Source: Dermatophagoides farinae (lineage: Eukaryota; Arthropoda; Arachnida; Sarcoptiformes; Pyroglyphidae). Taken from it: a stretch of 64,000 nt of DNA. Shown here piece by piece: positions 12,133-36,602 of this stretch. The stretch is taken from the NCBI RefSeq assembly GCF_024713945.1, contig NC_134686.1:2504001-2568000 (forward strand). Direction: 5' to 3'. How positions within the stretch are numbered: position 1 is the first letter of the stretch; each line of letters opens with the position of its first letter. The notes below the pieces were generated by a model. The model was not told where the DNA came from. It ran no database searches and saw only the letters and a list, made by a program, of their open reading frames with translations. A program made the position numbers and the translations under genes.

Positions 12133-14629
12133 ATGATGATGATGATGATGATGAAGTTTCATGATATACACGGCGTAAATGTTTCATTGGACGACAATAA
12201 ACGTATTGCAAAACGAACAAATTCATTTTGTGATGCATTCGTATTCAGTTCGAATCCAATGCGTATGAATACACCGATGATTATTCAATTATCATCACGG
12301 CTATCATCTGAATGGCATGGTGCATGTTTTATTGGATTAACCACACGTAATCCGGTCAATTTTATGGAAACAATTTATTCAAAACATATAATCAATTTGT
12401 TGACCACCAATGTTGATGATGTATGGATCAAACAAATTCGTCCAGAATGGTCAAATGACAGTTTGATTCTTTCATTGAATTCGGATGGTGTATTCGAAAT
12501 AATCACCGAATATGAACCAAATTTAAAATATATGTTTCTGGAAAATTTACCAATAAATTTTCCATTATGGTTAATACTTGATCTATATGGTCAAACTGAA
12601 CAGGTACAATTTCCACATTATTCATCACCAAATTGTCGGGAAATTGTTTCACTTGGATCGGATATCTATTCTACATATAAATGTGGTGAAAATGGTATTG
12701 TTCCATACAATTCGGCACGTATTATATTGATTGGACCAAAATCTTCTGGAAAAAGTCAATTGAAAAATATTTTCATAAGTAATTTGTAAGCATTCGATTG
12801 ATTGAAAAGATCACATGAATGAATATAAACTAAATATAAATAAATCCACTTTATTTAATTACAGAAATCAAGATTCAAAAGATAATAATGATTCAATTGG
12901 TGATCCATCACAATGTCATCTGATTACCAATAATGATGGTGAATGGAATTTGTTACCGAATTCGACAACGAATAAATTGCGAATAACTCATGCAGATAAA
13001 TCCGATATCTATCATGATATTGCCAAAAATATTGTCCAAGAAATTGTATCGAATAAAGATCAATTTGATGCCAATGAATCACATTCGCCAAAAGATTTGA
13101 TTAAAAATGTATTAAGATTTCCACGTAAACTATTGCGACCATATTCAAAAGAAGTAAAACAATTGAGTGAAAATTTGGTAAGGCAAAATGATTCTGTTGA
13201 TCATAATAATCAATGATGATGTTTGTAAAATTTATTTGTGATTAGAATGAAATTCCTGATGAATTAATGTTGATGATTGAAGAAATGTTGAAAGCAATAC
13301 CAAATGATCAGAAAAATCTAACTACAAATGAATCATCTGTTAAAGATTTGGCCAATGAAAATGGTAACAATAAATCAAAATTGATCATAAATGTCCATGA
13401 TTTTAGTGGAAATTTTCTCTATCTTCTTATTAATCAAGTAAGGATGATTAATTTTTTTTTTAAAAAATTTCCCACAAATTAAACAAAAACAAAATAGTTT
13501 TTCTTCACCAGTTGTTCTGTCTATCTTTTTGTATTCAATCTGGCCGATGATTTAGAAACAACAACGTTGTCCAAATATGAAAATGTTTCTTTTGTTGTAA
13601 GTTTTTGTTGTAAACTCGAAATCTTTAATTCTGTTCATTTTTTTCCCACTTGGTTCACAGAGTGAATTAGGAAATCAATCATTAACTGTTCTACATTCCA
13701 TTCATCTATGGATTTCTTTGATTCATTCAACAATTGCAGGATTTCCGATTCCAAATGAAATCTCACCATCATCACCACCATCATCGACCGCTGTGAATGA
13801 TACTAATGATACCGATAATACGGATAATAATCAACAACAACAACAACAACAAGACCAATCAGTAGACACACCGACAAGCGATGAAAATTCTAGTGAATCA
13901 AAAACATTTGAATTACTTCAACCACAAATCATATTGGTAGGCACACACCGTAATTCCATACATGCTGAGCCAATCACTCGTAATCAAATTGTCAATGAAA
14001 TATTCGATAAAATTCGTTCAAGTTTTAATGATAAAAGCTATGGGGGACATTTGTTTGAGAAAAATATCGCCTTAGATTGTAAAGAAATGTCATTCGATGA
14101 ACCGGATCTAGTGAAAAATCTACGTCATATAATTGAATCATTAATTCATGAAGAAAAAATGGCCGGATTCTCCATACCATTATGTTGGATACAATTGGAA
14201 CAAATATTGGAAAAATTTAAACAACGTGGCATATATTTTGTCGATGTTTATCAATTACATGAAGTTGTTTCATCAATAATCGATACATTTCAATCATATG
14301 AAAATCTGAATTCAGCATTATATTTCTATCATAATCAAGGACGGATATTCTTTCTGGATTGTGTCAATAATCAAACTGCATTCTCAGCGGCTGATGATCG
14401 TCATGGTACATATGAACTTGGTATTATAATATTGGATCCAAATTGGTTTATCAGCTGTATATATGATCTTTGTTCATATTTATGTTCAATGAAAAATGAT
14501 GATGATGATAATCTGTTTCTTGGTATTATTAGGTAATGATTTTTTATTTATTTTTTTTCGCTTTCATTTTGTCTATTTATCATTTTTATATTTTTCTTTT
14601 TTTTCATTTATTTCTCATTATATCTGTTT

Positions 14630-14665
<36 letters not shown>

Positions 14666-17600
14666 GTGAGAATGCCATTAATAATGCCTGGTCGAATATT
14701 ATTGATCAGAAATTCATTCTTCTTGGATGTTTAGAAAATCTTGATCTAATTTGTAAGTAAAACATGGATAAAAAAAATAATTCGATGGTTAAACACATAA
14801 TTTATCATCATTATTTTCAAAAGGCGAAATAAATCCATATTTACCAATGGAAGATGTTTCAGATGTATCTGCAACAGCAATGATACCGAAATTGTATTTT
14901 TTTCCATGGATTACAAAACCGGTCATGAATGATACGACAGAATTTATGAATTCCGGCCATAACGATGGTCATAATGATAATCAAAGTAGTGAAAGTAGAC
15001 CAGATTCATCATGTGATACGAATTCATCAGCGAATAGTAATCAACAATCAATGGTAAATGGTCATCCTAGTCCGGATCCAAATGATGATAGCCGCGTTGG
15101 AAATGGTGCCAACGCCACAATCGGTGGATCAACATTTCAATTTATCATTGAATTCAATATTCTGCCAGTGGTAAGTGAAAAATATTGGTTTCTTGATTGA
15201 TTTTTTTAAAAAATATTTTTCATTTCATTCTCAGAGCCTGTTCACTCGTCTATTAGTACGTTTATCGAAATGGTCATGGAATCAAGGCTGGGGCCGAAAA
15301 CCTGAAATGTTCAATTCAAAAGGCCGTATTGCCGTTGATTTTGATCATGATATCATATTGAAGATAAATCTATTTCAAGATAGAATTTATTTGATTATTG
15401 TGAAAATTTTCGAAGAAATTCCAAATGATCAGATTGAAAATTTATTCATTGGTCCAGCGGCTAATGTTTGTGTTAAGGTTCAACATCTTATTGAAAATGA
15501 ATTGGCATCATTGAAAAATTCCTATTATCGTCGGTTATCATTCAAGTTAGTTATTCCTTGTCCTTGTGATGTTGTATGTGAAAAACATGATATTGAAGGT
15601 TGTCTCAATGAATCATGTTTACATTTTCTAAGTCTACATGAATGTCTGCAGAAAAAAGTGGTTGAATGTCGATTTAATCGCCAGGTACGTACCACATTCA
15701 TACATCGTTTCCTTCCATATGCGCCATCCAATCTGAATGGTAAGTATTATTTTGTTGGTGAAATCCATGTAATTGTTACGATAATGACTAATTTTCTTAC
15801 GTTCTAGATGATATTACATACGATAATACAATGCTATTGCCTACATCGAACAATACAAATGTATGGGAAAATGTTTTCCAAGTGGAACAATTATGGATGC
15901 GTGAAGCTGCCAAATTATTGAATGGTAATGAAAAACAATCACACGGTATGATTGGTGGTCATCGTCATGGTCGTAGTAATGGTGGTGGTGGTGGTGGTGT
16001 AGACAGTAATAATCTACAATCATCATCATCATCATCATCATCAATGAATGATTGGAGGGCATTGGCAAAACGTTTGAGCTATACTGAACGTGATATAATG
16101 AAATTTAATGCTGAACTTTCACCATCATTAGCATTGTTGAATGATTGGTATGAATCGAATGGTCGTACTAGATATTGTATAGATGTTCTTGTTTCCTGTT
16201 TAAGAATGTTAAATCGTGAAGATATTGCTTCATTAATTGAATATGAATTGGAACCTGAATCAGCATCACCACCGATATTTATTAGCTATCAACATGATTC
16301 ACAGAAACAAGTTCTTGGTATGTTGAACGGGCCAAACAACCATGTTGACAATAATCAAAATTTTTTAATTGATTTTTTTTCCTCTATTCTTTTCTCTTTT
16401 GTTTTTATTCATATTACAACGATTACATCCATGCAGAGATTAGAAGAAAACTTGAGCTCTCAGGTTTTCAATGTTGGATGGATACCAGGTATATGCACAT
16501 CAACGAAGAAAATATGTTTTTTTCCCAATTTTCTAATCTTTATTAGGTTTGTCAGTAATTTTTTTTTTTGTTTTATTTTTTTTTTACATTAGATCCATTA
16601 ACGGTGGTGATTCATTATATGGAAAAATCTATGAAGGCATTAGTCGAGCCAAAGTATTTATATGGTAAATATATTCATTCATTCATTCATTTATAATGAT
16701 ATTAGATTGATTGAACCAATGTAATGTGTTGTTGTTGTTATTTTTTATTTTTTTTATTTTCCATTTCCATTAGTTGTCTAACACCAAGATATGTAGCATC
16801 ACCAATGTGTAATCGTGAAGTAGCATTAGCCGATGTATTACATAAACCAATATTACCATTGATTATTGAATTTACACCATGGCCACCACCAGGTGCAATG
16901 GCATTAATATTATCATCAATTGTTTATGTTGATCTATGTGGTGTTGGTAGCCATCATGGTACTGGACGTACACAGGATACTGAATCACGTTTTCGTGAAA
17001 TTCTTGATCATATATCAAGATATATTTCCGGCTATTCAGATACATCACCATTTGTTTCGACAAGATCATATCAATTACAATTACCAGATTTATTTACTAA
17101 TACTGGTAATCGTTTCACACATCATCATCAACAACAAGTTGGTCGTAATAATCGAATTAATGGTCGAGATGATCATCATCATCATTCACATAATCATTAT
17201 CATCAATCAAGAAATTTATTAATCAATCATCATCATCATCATCATCATCCGAATAGGCCAATAACGAATAATCGTAGCCATTATTCAAATGTTTTACAGC
17301 AACATTTTGGTCTTGCAAATGTTGGTCATCATAATAATCGTAATAATAATCAACAACAACAACAACATCAAAGCCTAATAAGACGTATACAATCATCAAC
17401 ATCATCAATGATATTACGACGAAATAATTCACATGATACATCGACATCACCAATATTGATGGAAAGTAATCTTGAACAATTAATTAATAATAATAATGGT
17501 GGTGGTGGTAATATGAATAGTAATAGTGAACAGAATACACGTATAAATTCAAGTGTTAGCAATAGCAATGATGATGATGATGACGATGATGATGATGATA

Positions 17601-17946
17601 ATAATAATAATGATGTTGTCCGAGATCATCATCATCAATATTCAAATTCGAATCATCATCATCATCATCAGCATAATAATAATCAACATCAACAACAGCA
17701 ATCATCATCAAGAAATGATGGTCAACAATTGGTAATTTTTTTTTTTTTTTTTGTTCACTAAACGGATTATCTGATTTATTAATTTTCGTTTTTTTTAATT
17801 TTATTTTATAACTTTCAATATAGAATCGAGATGTTGGCGAATTACCATTCACCGAACAGATTATAACCGATGATAATATTTCAGCTATAACAAGAGCACG
17901 TATTGCTAATCGTATTACAAATTGTTCTGTTTGTAAAATTATTTGA
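12133..17946 (+). CDS. NHR-Roc-COR-TIR multidomain protein
   Basis: Exons: 12133..12785, 12865..13177, 13246..13437, 13498..13596, 13661..14532, 14667..14752, 14824..15170, 15235..15739, 15808..16317, 16437..16488, 16593..16664, 16774..17731, 17824..17946. Phase closes at 1593 aa. Domains: Neuralized homology repeat at about 8-165 (FHDIHGVNVSL, then AFVFSSNPMR and WHGACFIGLTTRNP); Roc GTPase-like with P-loop GPKSSGKS (201-208), HDFSGN in place of DxxGQ (373-378), VYLFVFNL and VGTHRN in place of THRD (512-517); COR region at about 550-1020 (SIPLCWIQLEQIL, IILDPNWFI, LFTRLLVRL); TIR at about 1177-1320 (IFISYQHDS, GFQCWMD, GGDSLYGKI, CLTPRYVASPMCNRE, PILPLI). The tail is His/Asn/Gln/Asp-rich and ends CKII. 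The start is the first of seven tandem ATGs. Roco proteins act as dimeric scaffolds and TIR domains as death/immune adaptors or NADases; a signalling role is inferred. Confidence 0.85.
14631..14664 (+). repeat. (CA)n microsatellite abutting a splice acceptor
   Basis: About 17 CA units run to the AAG of the intron 5 acceptor (exon 6 starts at 14667) of the NHR-Roc-COR-TIR gene. The usual pyrimidine tract is replaced by the repeat; a T-rich stretch lies upstream of it. Confidence 0.9.
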
Positions 17947-25800: not shown

Positions 25801-28800
25801 TTTGGTTTGTTGTTATTCATATGTGTGTGTGTGTGTGTGTTTTATATTCGTGTTTTTTTTCCTGTTGTTGATTATGAAATTATTGTTGTTGTCGTTGTTG
25901 TTGTTGTGTTGTTGTTGTGTTGTTGTTGTTGTTGTTAATATAATCATCACCAGGATTGTATATCGTTTTGAATACATTGAATTGTAGTGAATGTTTTAAT
26001 CAAAATTTTATTACATCCTGTAATTTGAGTTGTGTGTATGATGATGACACAATCTTTGTTTCATATTTATATTGATGATATTAAATTGCTGTAATTTTTT
26101 TTCTCTTTTTTTTCATATCTTACAGAATCGAGATAATGCAACATATGAATGTTTAGCTGAAAATGGTATCGGTGAACCGGTCCGTGCAACAGCAATACTT
26201 CATGTTTATCCTGGTAAATATATGTGTGTTTACTATTTACAGTACAAACGATACAATCAGAAATGATTGTTTGTTCATTTCTGTGTGTGTGTGTGTGTTT
26301 GAAAAAAAAGAAAACACACCTTTGAAGATGATTGTTTGTTTGTGTACACGTTTTTTATTGATCAATTTTTTTTTCGTTTGTAATAGAGGAAAAAATACCG
26401 GAAGGATTTCCATCGTTTACATTACAGCCAAATATGCAAGGTGTTGAAAAAGGCCATAATGCATTATTACCATGTCGTGCAGTTGGCGATCCAGAACCAC
26501 AAATATATTGGCTACGTGATACAATACCAGTGGATATGACCAATCCACGTTATTCACTATATCAAGGAGGTATATATTTTATTTTCAATAATAAACATGA
26601 ATGATGATGATGACCATTACTAATATTTTACCATTTTTGTATTATCCGCTTTAGCATCATTGAAAATTTTACAAGCTCAAGAAGTAGATGAAGGTAAGTT
26701 ACATATTTCTTGTTTTTTGTTTTGTTTTTGAAGCCGGTAGAATATTCGGTGAAAAAATGATTGATCGTCCGTCTTCTTTTCTTTTTTTTTGCCCAATATT
26801 TACTATAATAGGTCCGTATGAATGTGTTGCTGAAAATAAAGTCGGTACTGCTTATTCGGAAATGGCTTCACTTCATGTTCGAAGTATGTAGTTGTCGATG
26901 TTGTTGGTAGTAGTGTTTTAAATTAACATTTTTTTTTCTTCCCTGAATGTTGACATTTCTTTTTTTTTCTGAACCGAAATCGATCGATGGACCAATCCAT
27001 TTTGTTAAAAATGATTATAGTTCGTGTTGTACCACCATATTTTACGATACCACCGGAAAATATCTATGAAATAATGCCACATAAAGATCTTAATCTAACT
27101 TGTGTTGCATCCGGTTCACCATTGCCCGAAGTACGATGGCGTAAAGGTGCCATTGAAATGAATAAAGATATAATACCACGTGGCCGTAATGTACTTACAT
27201 TAACAAATGTAAAAGAATCAGATAATTATACTTGTGTGGCAACATCGGAACATGGATCGATAGAAAAAACGGCACAAGTTATTGTTCGATCATTGCCAGG
27301 ACCACCTACCAATGTACAAGCATCGGATGTAACACCAACATCTGTTCGTCTTGCATGGAATTATGATTTTGGTTCCGAAGATATTGCCTATTTTATTATA
27401 CAATATAAACCAAAAAATGCTGGACAATTTTCTGAAATCAGTGGCATAACCACATCATTCTATGTAATCAATTCATTAACACCATATACTGAATATGAAT
27501 TCTATATCATTGCTGTCAATACGATTGGTCGTGGCCAACCATCATCATCGATTACGATCACAACAGGCGAAACAAGTAAGTTAACAACTTGAGTTTTTTT
27601 TCTGTTGTTTTGTTTTGTTTTGTTTTTTCTTCACACAATGAAATCATATAATTCAAATCTTAATCTTTTTGTACTAAAACAGAAAATCTAACATTTCATT
27701 TCTTTCTTTCTTTTTTTCAAATTTAACTGCTTTCCAAAAAAAAAAATGAAAACTAAACAGGACTTAACAGTATGCTTTAAATGATTTTTTCATTTTTTTT
27801 TAAATTTATGACCGATGAATATTAATTTGTTGATGATGATGATGATGACATTCACTAATACTTTTATCTTTTTTAATGTTTTTTTTTTGTTTTTGTTTTT
27901 TTTCAATTTTTTAGAACTAGGATCATATCCACGAAATGTTCAAGCACGGCCATTATCATCGACAACCATTGTGGTACAATGGGAACCACCCGAAGAGCCT
28001 AATGGCCAAGTGACTGGTTATAAAATTTATTATACATTAAATCCAAATCTTCCTATCAATTCATGGGATGTACAATCGGTTAATAGTAATGAGCTTACAA
28101 CAATATCCGATCTACAAGCACAATCGATTTATTCGATACGTGTACAGGCATTTACAACACGTGGTGCTGGACCATTATCACCACCGGTTCAAGTTAAAAC
28201 ACAACAAGGTGTACCTAGTCAACCATTAAATCTATTGGCCACATCAATATCGGCAACATCCGTACAATTAACATGGAATAAACCAAGTCATACTGGTGAA
28301 TCGATTATTGGTTATGAAATATATTGGAACGATACATTCACCAATCAAGAATATAAACGTGCCGTTCCTGTAGTGGAAACATATAAACTAACCGATTTAT
28401 ATCCAGATACATTGTATTATATTTGGATTGCTGCCAAATCACGTCGTGGTGAAGGTGCTGCAACACCTCCGATTCCTGTGAAAACTGATCAATATGGTGA
28501 GTGATTTTCTGTTTTCATTTCGGTTTAATGCCTTGTTTTGTTGTGTTTTGTTTTGTTTTATTTAATTTCGTTTTTTTTTTTTTTATTTTTGTTTTGTTTT
28601 TGGAATGCCGTTTTTCATGTTTTTTTTTTGTATTGCATGCATGTGTGCACCTGTGTCATGAATTTTTTAGTGCCGGAAACACCACCCAAAGAAGTTTATG
28701 TAAGAGCAATAGGTTCACGTTCATTACGAATACGGTGGCAACCACCCGAAGATTCTAGTGTACAGCATATAATTTATTATAAAATTCGTTATCGTGAAAT

Positions 28801-31800
28801 CACCAACGAACAAGATGATGATCACGATGATGGTGATGATGATGATGATGATGATGAGAATAGTTATCGAACATCAATATCAACAAACGCAGAGCCAATA
28901 CAATTAGAAAAAGTATTTGAAATAAACAATTCGAATCGTGATACATATCCATATGAATTGATTCTGAATGAATTGAAACATTGGACACAATATCAGGTGG
29001 AAATATTAGCTGGCACAAAAATTGGTGATGGACCACCATCTGATCCTATTGTTGTTCGTACCGAAGAAGATGGTAAGATTTTTTTTCTTCTTGCTCCAAT
29101 ATCTGTCTGTCTGTCTGTCTGTCTCTTGCTTCACGTCATTCGAAAAAAAATTGATTGAAGATCTCACTCTTTAGCAACGGAAATTTCTCTCTTTTTTGCT
29201 TTAATAATTAATTACTTTCCTATTTTTTTTCTTCTTTACTTGAATTACCACCGCACTTATCGAACACACTATTTTCATTTTTTTTTTTTTTTTTGGTTTA
29301 ATTGATTCACCAAAAAAAAAGATTGTTCCTTTTTCATCCAATGTTTTAATCTATTTTTAATGGTTTTTTTTCAGTTCCGGGTGAACCACGCGATGTAAAA
29401 GTAATGGCAATCAATTCTTCATCCGTACAAGTTCGATGGATACATCCGGAAGATTCTGAACATAATGGCCTGATTCGTGGCTATCAAATTCATGTACAAG
29501 AAATTGATAGGCTTGGTGAACCTACTGGTGAACAATTACGTTTTGATGTTGCCGACGGTTTGGCACAAGAATTTAATGTTACATCATTACAACCGGATAC
29601 CGAATATTCGGTTCAAGTTGCAGCTGTAACAAGAAAAGGCGATGGAACTCGTAGCCGTGCTGTCAATGTTAAAACTGCCGGCGGTGTTCCAACCAAACCG
29701 GAAATATTTATCAGTTTTCTAAAAGATGATCCACGAATGTCTGTAAAAGTTTATTGGACTAGACCGAATCAAACATTTAGTCAATTATTGGAATATAAAC
29801 TTCGTTATGGACGTGTTGATGATACGGTCAGAGACGAAGTGATAATGCCAGCTACTGAAACATTAAAGATTATTGAAAATTTGGAACGTGGCACACGTTA
29901 TGAATTTAGATTAAGTGGACGTAATTCAGTAGGCTGGGGCCAAGAATCTGTTACATATTTGGATACACCAGAAGGAGTTCCATCGGCTCCACCACAGAAC
30001 ATAACCGATCGTTTACAATCGCCAACTACTGTTGTGTTTACGTGGGATCCACCCGCCTATCAACAACAGAATGGAAAGATTACTGGTTATGGAATTCATT
30101 TTCACAAGTTAATAGATGTCACTCCAACCGAATACAATACTACTAACCTTCGAATGGTGTTCAGTTCGTTGGACGAGAATACTGAATATAAATTCAGGTA
30201 TACTTTTGAATGAAATGAATAATTTATTTGGGTTATTATCACAAGAAAAAAGTCAATCAATTATCATTCTGGCGTGTTATGAATACTAATTAATTATTTT
30301 TTTTTCGTTGTCCCATTGTAGAGCTCGTGCGTATACATCTAAAGGTGCTGGACCATGGTCAGATGTATTGCAGATAATGACACCTGGAGATGCACCACCA
30401 GCACCAACCAGTGTACAAGCATTAGCAACATCAGAAACATCGGTCGAAGTTTGGTGGGATGAAATGCCATTTTTCAATGATATTCTTGGCTATACTGTTT
30501 TATATACACAAATCGCTGTCGAAGATCTTGATCTTTGGTTTCGTCGTGAACTATCATTAACATGGTCGGCTGAACTTACCGGATTAGAACCGAAAACAAT
30601 GTACGCTATTCGTGTGGCAGCTTACACTAGAAATGGTTTAGGTCGATTATCAGAATTGATTACCGTTCGTACGGATCCAACCGAAGTTCCATTGAATCTT
30701 CAATCAACCGAAGTTACAACTCATACAATGACTTTGACTTGGAAACCACCAAGAAAATTGGATCCTGTCAAATATCAGATAACCTATGGTGCAAACAAAG
30801 AATTCTATGACAGTCAAGGAGTATTACAACGTTTAAAGATCGAACCGAAAACCATTTTTGAATCTTCAGATACGAATGAATATAAATTGATCAAATTGAT
30901 GCCATTTACAACATATCAAGTAAACGTGACAGCTATCGCTTCGGATGATGGTCATGTATATAGGCCGGCAGCTAAAATTATCGTAACGACTGCAATGGCC
31001 GCACCAAAACCTATGGTAAAACCGGATACAATTGAATCGAAAAATAAACAGCTGATCACAGTGATTCTACCACAAGCATCGGAAGAATTTGGCCTAATCT
31101 CTCATTATTATTTGGTTGTTGTGCCAAAAGAATTCGCTGATAAAGAACCTGATTTATATACGATCGAAGAGTTGAGCTCAACACCTATAGACAAGGTTGG
31201 ACCTTATATTGCTGCCAAATGGATGCGACGTTCGATTCCGAATACATTCTCATTGGGTGATGGCCAAAAATATAATGGATTTATTAATCGTAAATTGCAA
31301 AAAAATGTTGAATATCGTATCTTTGTTCGTGCTGTTGTGGATACACCACAAAAGAGTTTGTTTACAAGTTCACCATTTTCCGATCTACTAAGTTTAGAAA
31401 ATAATATGAATTTTATGAGCCATGAACCAACTCGTGTACATATTACCAGTGCAACATATGATCCAAAAGGCGTTCCAATAATGGGCAGAACTGGTGATAA
31501 ATCTGGCCCGATCCTCGTTCTATCCATTGTATTGGCCATCATGGTGGTGGTCATGTCGATTATAGCTTGTATCGTTAAACATCGACGACAAGTTATCAAA
31601 TCAACTCTAAATGATACGTCAATGAAACAATTGATTGCCACAGTAGAACCACAAGATCATATGATTCATCCATCAGATCCTGTGGAATTACGAAGATTAA
31701 ATTATCAAACATCAGCAATGCGTGATCATCCTCCGATTCCGATTACTGAACTTGAAAATCATATTGAACTGTTGAAAGAGAATGAAAATCAAAAATTTTC

Positions 31801-33634
31801 ACACGAATATGAATCAATCGATCCTGGTCAACAATTTACATGGGAAAATTCTAATCTTCCAGTGAATAAATCAAAAAATCGTTATGCTAATGTCATTGCT
31901 TATGATCATAGTCGTGTTGTATTGCAACCAATACCGGGTGTACCCGGTTCTGATTATATTAATGCAAATTATTGCGATGCATATCGTAAACCGAATTCCT
32001 ATATTGCTACACAAGGCCCATTACCCGAAACATTTGGTGATTTTTGGCGTATGGTATGGGAACAGAATAGTTTATCCATTGTGATGATGACTAAACTGGA
32101 AGAAAGAACTAGAATTAAATGTGACCAATATTGGCCTTCAAAAGGTACGGAAAAATATGGTGAAATTGAAGTCACGTTGATCAATTACGAAGAATTGGCC
32201 ACCTATTGTATACGGACATTCACATTGAAACGTGTTGGTACGTTTGATCTCCCGCGTGAAGTACGTCAATTTCAATTCACCGCATGGCCTGATCATGGTG
32301 TACCAAGACATCCGACACCTTTTCTAATGTTTTTACGACGTGTTAAATCAATGAATCCACCTGATGCTGGCCCATTAATTATTCATTGTTCGGCTGGTGT
32401 TGGTCGTAGTGGATGTTATATCGTAATCGATTCAATGTTGGATCGTATTAAATGTGAAGATTCAATCGATATCTATGGTCATGTTACATGTTTACGTGCA
32501 CAACGTAATTATATGGTACAGACCGAAGATCAATATATTTTCATCTATGATGCTGTTCTTGAAGCCGTTATAGCCGGCAATACTGAAGTTGTTTCAAGAG
32601 ATTTATATAAACAATTTCAATATTTAATGCAATTGGTACCTGGTGAAAATTGTACGACTATGGAATTAGAATTTCAAAAAATTGCTACAATGCGTCCAAA
32701 TAATGATGAGAATAAATTTATAAGCGCAAATCTTGTTTGTAATAAACATAAAAATCGTCTTATGAACATATTGCCATATGAATCGACCAGAGTATTTTTA
32801 CAACCAATTCGTGGTGTTGAAGGATCGGATTATATAAATGCAAATTTTATTGATGGCTATAAATATCGTAATGCTTATGTTGCTACACAAGGTCCATTAA
32901 TGGAAACTACCGATGATTTTTGGCGTATGATTTGGGAACATAATTCAAACATTATTGTTACATTAACACAAACACAAGAAATGGGCCGAGAAAAATGTCA
33001 TGAATATTGGCCAAGTGAACGTTCACAACGATATTCATATTTTGTTGTTGAACCAATTACCGAATATAATATACCGCAATATATACTTCGTGAATTTAAA
33101 ATAACCGATGCTCGGGTAATTGAATTGATGATGAATGAATGAGATTGTTTTATTTTAATTTCATTTTTTTTTATTTTTTTGTTGGTTTTTCAATAGGATG
33201 GCCAATCTCGTATGATTAGACAATTCCATTATGTTGATTGGCCAGAACAAGGTGTACCAAAATCTGGTGAAGGTTTCATTGAATTCATTACACAAGTACA
33301 TAAAACAAAAGAACAATTTGGACATGAGGGCCCGATTACGGTCCATTGCAGGTATGTTTTGTTTTGTTTTTAATATCATCGAAAATTGAATTATTTTTTC
33401 TTTCTTTCTGTCTGTGTTTTGTGTATATATAGTGCCGGTGTCGGTCGTACAGGAGTATTCATTACATTAAGTATTGTACTTGAACGTTTACAAAATGAAG
33501 ATGTTCTTGATCTATTTCAAACGGTTCGTACATTACGTACACAAAGACCGGGAATGGTGCAGACTGAAGATCAATATCAATTCTGTTATCGAGCTATACT
33601 TGAATATATAAGCACATTCGATATGGCTGCTTAA
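19873..33634 (+). CDS. Lar: LAR-type receptor protein tyrosine phosphatase
   Basis: Exons: 19873..20182, 23419..23618, 26126..26213, 26387..26569, 26655..26693, 26812..26883, 27021..27575, 27915..28496, 28671..29072, 29375..30197, 30322..33115, 33197..33351, 33433..33634; phase closes at 2134 aa. LAR binds heparan sulphate proteoglycans and synaptic ligands and works in axon guidance and presynaptic assembly. Seen: signal peptide in exon 1 (hydrophobic run ending ILARSDG, behind a Cys/Ser/His low-complexity head), three Ig domains (residues about 104-400, each with paired Cys), nine FN3 repeats, one TM helix (about 1479-1502), then D1 with KNRYANV, WPDHGVP and [10 protein letters not shown] (Cys about 1774), and D2 with WPEQGVP and [10 protein letters not shown] (Cys about 2067). 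Nine FN3 matches Drosophila Lar. FN3-4 has an Asp-run insertion coded at 28813-28858. Confidence 0.96.
20183..23418 (+). other. LAR intron 1 (3.2 kb)
   Basis: The first intron separates the signal-peptide exon from Ig1. It is AT-rich with (ATTC)n, (GTT)n, (GT)n at 21799-21821 and poly-T/poly-A runs. A perfect 20-bp inverted repeat lies at 20286-20330. No additional conserved exon was recognised; open frames here are repeat translation. Confidence 0.7.
20286..20330. repeat. Perfect 20-bp inverted repeat (hairpin)
   Basis: The left arm (20286-20305) starts GGGTTAAATTTTTTC. A 5-base loop TTGCA follows (20306-20310), then the right arm (20311-20330) is its exact reverse complement, ending TTTAACCC. 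The flanks pair imperfectly beyond this. It lies about 100 bp into LAR intron 1. Confidence 0.9.
23619..26125 (+). other. LAR intron 2 (2.5 kb), splitting Ig1
   Basis: Separates the two halves of Ig1. It holds several (CA)n/(TG)n, GTT and GAT repeats and one GC-rich spot with five or more GCC units near 24555-24575, which stands out in this AT-rich window. No exon recognised. Confidence 0.65.
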
Positions 33635-35318: not shown

Positions 35319-36602
35319 ATGTCCTGGAAAACAATGGAAAACATATTTCAAACGGCCATCGTTACAAATGATATTGATCTTGCACGAACGGTCATTCATA
35401 TGGTGAATATAAATACATTTTTTGATCATCGACAAGAGCTACCATTACATTTAAGTGTTAAAAATGGCCATATAAATATGGTTAAATTTCTTATTGAAAA
35501 TGGTGCCAATGTCAATATGATGGATCGTTCATATTTATATCCATTACATTATGCATGTTTATTTGTTCATCCATCGATAGCATCGTTATTGATTATGGCT
35601 GATGCAGATCCAAATGTCACTTCATTGAAAGCACAGACACCATTATTAGCAGCTATTGAATCAAATTCACTTGGTAAGTGATGTTTAATGGGAATGTGAT
35701 CGTTATCTGATCTAAATTTTTTATTTATTTTTACAAAAACATTACAAGAACTAGTCAAAATTCTTGTCAAAGCTGGTGCCGATATTGAAATGGCCGATTC
35801 TTTTAATTCAAATACACCATTACATCAAGCTTGTTTACATTTTCCATCGAATGCTCGTTTGGATATTGTCAAATATTTGATTGCATGTGGTGCTAATGTT
35901 AATACGAAAAATAATTCTGGTTTTACACCATTATTAACTGCCATACTTCAGAATTATAGTATAAATGTACGTCTAATCAAGTTATTATTACGTTCTGGTT
36001 GTGATCCAGATGAAGCAAACAAAGCTGGTATATCACCATTGTTGGCCACTATTCGACGATCTAGTGATCATTTTGATGATGGTGTAGAAACAGTGCAGCT
36101 ATTGATTGATCATGGATGTAATGTGAATGCACGTGAATTTGAATATTGTAATCAGGCGCCCGTATTGACACCTGGCGATACTGCATTGAATATTTCCATT
36201 GATCGTAATCAAGATTCAATTACTGAAAAACTAATACGAAATGGTGCCAATGTTAGTGTGGAAAATTCACATGGTAAAATACCAATATTTTCATTATTAC
36301 GTGATCGTAAATATGTTCTAGCTAGACAAGCTATAGCGATAATGCCATTCATTTCAACAAAACATTTACAACAATTATTAATACATCATTATCTATCCGA
36401 TGAATATCAAATGGATGAAGATACGAAAAATTTTCAACAAATCAAACGTTTCCTATTACAACGATGGCCATATTTTCCACGTTTAATGCATCTATGTCGT
36501 TGTTCATTGAGAAAATTTTTGGGAAAAAATTCTGATCAATTAATCGAACAATTATGTTTGCCCGAATCGATAAGAATGTTTTTAATGTTGAAACAATTGT
36601 AA
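35319..36602 (+). CDS. Ankyrin-repeat and SOCS-box (ASB) protein
   Basis: Exon model join(35319..35673, 35749..36602) gives 402 aa. ASB proteins are substrate receptors of Elongin B/C-Cullin5 ubiquitin ligases. Seen: five to seven ankyrin repeats (ELPLHLSVKNGHINMVKFLIENGANVN style, residues about 35-300; others begin YPLHYACLF, TPLHQACLH and TPLLTAIL), a helical linker, then a C-terminal SOCS box with a BC-box-like LMHLCRCSLRKFLG and a LPES motif where a Cul5 box LPxP is expected. The start is the ATG of MSWKTMENIF, after a T/C-rich leader. Which ASB subtype it is cannot be told by eye. The downstream Yip1-family gene is convergent, only 85 bp away. Confidence 0.85.

Follow-up and report, generated by a model that had tools for sequence, protein, structure and literature searches.

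A predicted mite protein joining Neuralized, Roc-COR, Death and TIR domains

The gene model and its predicted domains

We analyzed a 64,000-nucleotide stretch of the Dermatophagoides farinae genome (contig NC_134686.1, positions 2,504,001 to 2,568,000; hereafter the window) and describe a predicted gene on its forward strand, at positions 12133-17946 of the window. Rebuilt from its splice sites, the gene consists of 13 exons that join into 4782 nucleotides, encoding 1593 residues and a stop codon with no internal stops. Matches to profile hidden Markov models (HMMs) indicate that the encoded protein very probably combines, in one chain and in this order, a Neuralized homology repeat (NHR), a Roc GTPase-like domain, and COR, Death and TIR domains. 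The features are as follows, with expectation values (E) from Pfam unless stated otherwise.

12133-12785, 12865-13177, 13246-13437, 13498-13596, 13661-14532, 14667-14752, 14824-15170, + strand: first exons of the gene; GT-AG introns, phase-consistent
15235-15739, 15808-16317, 16437-16488, 16593-16664, 16774-17731, 17824-17946, + strand: remaining exons of the gene; one terminal stop
12157..12612, + strand: predicted NHR, residues 9-160; PF07177, E 5.1e-25, whole protein
12733..12756, + strand: predicted Roc P-loop GPKSSGKS, residues 201-208, on the exon that also carries the NHR; read from the sequence, the piece alone matching Roc at E 0.056
13321..13557, + strand: predicted Roc core with G3 motif DFSG, residues 348-406, intron-spanning; PF08477, E 7.2e-5 in the whole protein and 3.2e-6 in a 391-residue piece
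13937..13954, + strand: G4-like motif of Roc, VGTHRN, residues 512-517; Asn where the mite LRRK-like (THYD) and DAPK-like (THAD) genes have Asp
14183..14894, + strand: putative COR-A, residues 594-762, intron-spanning; PF16095, E 0.0055 whole and 5.4e-5 as a piece, below the curated cut-off
15129..15657, + strand: putative COR-B, residues 841-995, intron-spanning; PF25497, E 0.0026 whole and 1.5e-5 as a piece, below the curated cut-off
16044..16247, + strand: predicted Death domain, residues 1102-1169; PF00531, E 3e-10, top of six Death matches in the genome
16275..16939, + strand: predicted TIR domain, residues 1179-1289, spanning introns 9-11; PF13676 (TIR_2), E 8e-23, with Cat1 the best match in PDB
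16796..16828, + strand: ASPMCNREVAL in the TIR domain; by alignment Ser1243 and Glu1249 fall at Cat1 S68 and E74 (the Glu also at SARM1 E642) and Met1245 at SARM1 W638
17075..17731, + strand: low-complexity C-terminal stretch, residues 1335-1553, in the last large exon; Asn, Gln, His, Asp and Ser make up 64%

All 12 introns begin with GT and end with AG and are 60-134 bp long, and G+C content is 0.325 in the exons versus 0.232 in the introns. When the frame of the preceding exon is continued into the intron, an in-frame stop is encountered in 10 of the 12, introns 4 and 9 having none. Seven consecutive ATG codons open the reading frame (12133-12156), and because an in-frame TAA lies immediately upstream of the first of them, the candidate true starts are the first few methionine codons. 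At the other end of the protein, the stretch at residues 1335-1553 is probably disordered.

The distribution of the domains over the exons bears on whether this is one gene. Exon 1 holds both the NHR and the P-loop, Roc extends over exons 1-5, COR-A over exons 5-7 and COR-B over exons 7-8; exon 9 holds the Death domain and the start of the TIR domain, which continues to exon 12. Since shared or spanning domains bridge every junction except that of exons 8 and 9, a split of 12133-17946 into two genes is unlikely. Such a split would leave an NHR-Roc-COR gene (exons 1-8) next to a Death-TIR gene (exons 9-13), fused by the model at the one junction outside any domain (between 15739 and 15808), which is held by frame and splice signals alone. 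The intron there, however, is only 68 bp long (GTAAGT..CTAG, with matching phase) and offers hardly any space for a promoter, and a similar domain set has been reported elsewhere as a single combination (PMC5094078). We therefore give this arrangement very little probability.

The rebuilt exons and introns agree with the continuous, phase-consistent 13-exon, 1593-residue model of a preliminary description made from the sequence alone. That description had also named the NHR, Roc, COR and TIR domains in the order found here, but had overlooked the Death domain in the interval between COR and TIR. As a check it had proposed HMM searches for Roc and COR between NHR and TIR; Pfam places Roc, COR-A and COR-B in that interval, each with a weak match. 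The Pfam scan of the whole protein was run at E<=10, with filters that drop most matches above ~0.1, and under these settings gave no match to NACHT, NB-ARC, ARM, SAM, kinase or ankyrin models.

Evidence for and against the Roc-COR assignment

In the whole protein the Roc match scores 23.4 bits, below the cut-off of 27, whereas the 391-residue piece reaches 27.8 bits and passes it. Shuffled COR pieces (n=10, five of each) gave no COR match, and two of the ten matched other families at E 0.024-0.12. The protein was also compared with two other mite genes, which like all mite genes discussed here are named from single domain matches and by-eye reading. In a two-sequence set, blastp aligned it with the LRRK-like frame in two places, near G3 at E 0.005 and over the part running from G4 to COR-A at E 0.006, and gave 0.38 and 0.91 among the matches listed for the DAPK-like frame; phmmer on this comparison gave 0.0001 and 0.058. 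This pairwise likeness lends weak support to a Roc-COR identity.

Other results weigh against the assignment. As pieces, COR-A and COR-B score 23.6 and 25.3 bits against curated cut-offs of 35.3 and 27, and a DUF1619_N model overlaps COR-B at E 0.0046. Searched against PDB by sequence, the COR piece has no match at E<=10, and the Roc piece finds LRRK2 at just 0.16. Genome searches, which covered the 62.4 Mb assembly and yield counts that are lower bounds, were run exon by exon for Roc and COR-A, both of which are divided among several exons in this gene. The gene is absent from the 98 Roc matches at E<=0.1, and also from the COR-A result at E<=10, where both matches lie in the LRRK-like frame; the DAPK-like frame likewise escaped the COR-A search. 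Because the PDB and genome searches gave no backing, the COR call rests on the HMMs together with domain order.

Within Roc, the two shortest pieces taken alone match Roc weakly, the P-loop piece at 0.056, behind another family at 0.038, and the G3 piece at 0.025, and the distance from P-loop to G3 is 165 residues. The G4 motif reads THRN instead of the THxD kept by both the LRRK-like and the DAPK-like mite gene. THxD is usual at G4 in Roco proteins without being a defining feature, and its replacement may have weakened or abolished the specificity for GTP. We also considered Roc as a different P-loop ATPase and rejected this, the matches being weak (best 0.038).

Comparison of the TIR domain with NAD-cleaving TIRs

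Against PDB, the TIR domain matches Cat1 best (2.9e-9; 30 of 83 aligned residues identical), followed by SARM1 (6.2e-6), a TLR15/TLR2 entry (1.4e-4), IL1RAP (0.001) and TLR1 (0.0067). The entries that we take to be TIRAP reach 0.46 at best, and none of the 44 matches at E<=1 bears the name MyD88. Cat1, the TIR protein of a type III CRISPR system, cleaves nicotinamide adenine dinucleotide (NAD+) (PMC12162218). In this ranking the TIR domain stands closer to Cat1 and SARM1, which are NAD-cleaving TIRs, than to MyD88. Among collections of prokaryotic models, NCBIfam returned three bacterial TIR models (Thoeris ThcB4, retron TIR and FxsC), all far under their cut-offs, and PADLOC returned 12, the best being PDC-S66 (3.2e-9), with Aga_TIR models, bSEFIR, ThsB and SAVED_TIR also present. 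A prokaryotic origin by way of a close bacterial TIR relative was set aside: 22 contig stretches were pattern-matched and none was confirmed, in a search that detects close relatives only.

We compared catalytic positions in an alignment of nine TIR sequences that includes the mite MyD88-like protein, three mite Tolls, two SARM1 rows, Cat1 and the sequence L016. Asp1208, in the BB loop, occupies the position of SARM1 D594 and Cat1 D33; this Asp is shared with both SARM1 rows, Cat1 and L016 and is absent from the mite MyD88 and all three Tolls. Glu1249, at SARM1 E642 and Cat1 E74, is common to all nine sequences except the mite MyD88. Changes at D594 or E642 reduce the activity of SARM1 (PMC8266388). 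The active site of Cat1 is formed by S7, H8, N9, N10, D33, S68 and E74 of one protomer together with K121 and Y122 from the adjacent one; replacing N10, D33, S68, E74, K121 or Y122 by alanine in each case impaired the ability of Cat1 to cause growth arrest (PMC12162218). At the seven positions of the single protomer the mite TIR is identical in four (S7, D33, S68, E74) and differs in three (H8, N9, N10).

Other features of the alignment speak against an enzymatic TIR. Glu1249 alone proves nothing, because the three mite Tolls carry Glu too. The position of SARM1 W638 holds Met1245; seven of the remaining sequences have Trp there, and the mite MyD88 has Asp. The SARM1 SS loop is missing from the mite TIR (an 8-column gap), and TIRs without this loop are described as inactive (PMC8266388); in our alignment, however, the loop is also absent from Cat1, which has Trp at W638 and does cleave NAD+. 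The positions of Cat1 K121 and Y122 fall beyond the aligned part of the mite TIR. Two candidate markers were dropped. The preference for the TIR_2 over the TIR model cannot serve as a sign of the enzymatic type, since the mite MyD88-like protein shares it (48.2 vs 34.3); the BB-loop Gly (SARM1 G601), which as aligned is Asp here, depends on gap placement. On balance, an enzymatic output, with predicted NAD+ cleavage, is possible and slightly favored.

Related proteins, proposed role and significance

Proteins of the NHR-Roc-COR-Death-TIR kind are already in print, so the preliminary description's suggestion of a possible undescribed system is not supported. A 2016 study (PMC5094078) describes the sea anemone (actiniarian) Novel Gene 3, in which Roc/COR, Death and TIR occur as in the mite protein, with a kinase and SH3 where the mite has the NHR. 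It gives as the most similar combination one with 'neuralized' replacing kinase and SH3, in the centipede Strigamia maritima and the oyster Crassostrea gigas; compared by description only, this domain set equals that of the mite protein. In a 2022 study of Aplysia (PMC9334734), the legend to Fig. 6, on TIR/COR proteins, lists NHR, ROC, COR, Death and TIR boxes. LOC101861518 and its relatives carry Death, TIR and ROC/COR, and the NHR box is named in the legend for the set as a whole; unlike the mite protein, LOC101861518 is classed as MyD88, and a novel GTPase TLR cascade is suggested for Aplysia. In the open-licence literature, covered mostly through search listings, we found no functional study of an NHR-Roc-COR-Death-TIR protein and no report from a mite. 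The mite gene is thus a new member of a published kind that is functionally uncharacterized within that literature.

Better-known proteins share parts of the layout. DAPK1 has the order Roc-COR-Death with a kinase and ankyrin repeats in front and no TIR; the mite protein has Roc-COR-Death in common with it, no kinase or ankyrin match, and a TIR. MyD88 has Death then TIR, to which the mite protein adds NHR-Roc-COR. SARM1 shares the Asp and Glu of its TIR, but has ARM and SAM domains, the SS loop and W638, in place of which the mite protein has no ARM or SAM match, no loop and Met. In Cat1 the sensor is CARF, instead of NHR-Roc-COR-Death.

We propose that the protein is most likely a hub of immunity or cell death that works in the cytosol under the control of its GTPase; the location itself is probably cytosolic, and the predicted domain identity together with GTPase-gated Death/TIR signaling has, in our judgment, somewhat better than an even chance of being right. 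The NHR, as a SPRY-like binding module, would recognize a ligand or membrane partner, or keep Roc off as a lid. SPRY-like domains, including the Neuralized repeat, are prominent in eukaryotic immunity (PMC8195603), and binding of the LRRK2 ROC domain to the Neuralized protein NEURL4 (PMC4565672) is a precedent for an NHR-Roc contact in trans. Roc-COR would act as a nucleotide-controlled dimerizer (PMC4104024), its nucleotide state altering self-association, perhaps with a specificity changed by THRN, and Death and TIR would form a nucleating tail. The output could be NAD+ cleavage by side-by-side TIRs, as in SARM1 and Cat1, to which we assign a probability a little short of even, or the protein could serve as an adaptor only, drawing in Death/TIR partners (Toll-MyD88-Pelle) through homotypic contacts, which we regard as plausible at below-even probability; an output that is neither is improbable.

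The preliminary description had likewise suggested sensing, nucleotide-controlled dimerization and TIR output, a reasonable inference given the SPRY-like precedent in immunity (PMC8195603), albeit one that omitted the Death domain. The likeness it saw to STAND-type receptors extends to the layout; with no NACHT or NB-ARC match, Pfam gives no STAND ATPase. It is doubtful, though conceivable, that the protein is an animal layout counterpart of plant TIR receptors, a soluble sensor with a ligand-reading NHR, a Roc-COR GTPase that gates assembly and a Death-TIR tail that turns into an NAD+-cleaving enzyme.

An explanation that overlaps with the adaptor output of the proposed hub is that the protein is a MyD88-like adaptor with a Myddosome-style Death-TIR tail and a non-enzymatic TIR, in which NHR-Roc-COR only regulates availability. 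The Death-then-TIR order, the unkept W638 position and SS loop, and the Pelle/IRAK-like Death and kinase genes of the mite genome are in keeping with this, as are the filing of a ROCO-bearing Aplysia protein under MyD88-like (PMC9334734) and the TLR-pathway interaction proposed for the anemone Roc/COR-Death-TIR gene (PMC5094078). Yet the genome has another gene with Death and TIR domains, about as large as MyD88 (a 392-residue frame), the TIR matches in PDB favor Cat1 and SARM1 over TIRAP and MyD88 as set out above, and the Death domain is nearer in PDB to p75NTR (4.3e-5) and ankyrin (0.0027) than to MyD88 (0.039). We therefore hold this explanation to be tenable but not probable.

It is less likely still that the protein is a Roco of the DAPK/LRRK type without an immune role, acting in cell death or trafficking, for example in Notch ligand endocytosis through the NHR or in a developmental Death/TIR cell-death complex. 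LRRK2 and NEURL4 do work together in Notch-ligand trafficking (PMC4565672). The tail of DAPK has the Roc-COR-Death order, and the mite itself has a DAPK-like frame; on the other hand, the protein has no kinase or ankyrin match, and DAPK-like and LRRK-like genes exist separately in the genome. We also know of no TIR in DAPK/LRRK-type pathways, which we count against this explanation.

The identity of the genome as D. farinae is backed by its Der f 2 exon, which agrees with a solved Der f 2 in 119 of 120 residues and less well with Der p 2. No close second copy of the gene was found in the genome: a spliced TIR search at E<=1 gave four matches, all of them this gene's own exons. The Neuralized model matched three times, in this gene and at two neighboring sites on contig C3. 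Elsewhere in the genome are MyD88-like (L004), SARM-like (L018, L057), Toll-like (L001-L003), Pelle/IRAK-like Death and kinase (L050, L054), DAPK-like (L051) and LRRK-like (L038) genes. Outside the window there is also a second non-Toll TIR gene (L067, C1:1651000-1658500, - strand), in which TIR-like halves recognized by eye lie in adjacent frames. One half scores 29.8 bits with TIR_2, and a downstream Rossmann-like frame weakly resembles SLOG cluster 4 (E 0.0075, below cut-off); a TIR-SLOG protein at this locus, if that is what it is, could make and sense NAD-derived signals.

The window contains 25 open frames of at least 170 residues, five of which are exons of this gene. Seven of the other 20 were scanned at E<=0.01, giving a mitochondrial carrier, Yip1, ankyrin-SOCS, immunoglobulin/fibronectin and fibronectin/tyrosine-phosphatase frames and two without a match; among these seven there was no pointer to a shared pathway. 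Immunoglobulin, fibronectin III and tyrosine-phosphatase frames at 26954-33139, of which the first and last were scanned, are probably a single gene for a receptor-type (LAR-like) phosphatase, and at 35700-36599 a SOCS box comes after ankyrin repeats.

A 2014 review of ROC domains places LRRK and DAPK1 in protostomes and deuterostomes and MFHAS1 in deuterostomes only (PMC4104024), and a Roco from a protostome that has a Death and a TIR domain lies outside the list in that review. The Imd pathway is highly reduced in chelicerates (PMC4833078), and acariform mites appear to be without it and XIAP (PMC6275457); an extra Death-TIR protein would therefore be a concrete candidate for what mites use besides Toll. 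The mite protein is a natural case in which to ask whether a TIR can be driven by a Roc-COR switch and whether NHR and Roc make contact in cis. If the protein is indeed a counterpart of plant TIR receptors, mites, perhaps with centipedes and molluscs, would have a second enzymatic TIR beyond SARM1, and with it a class of Roco additional to LRRK, DAPK1 and MFHAS1, the ones usually listed for animals.

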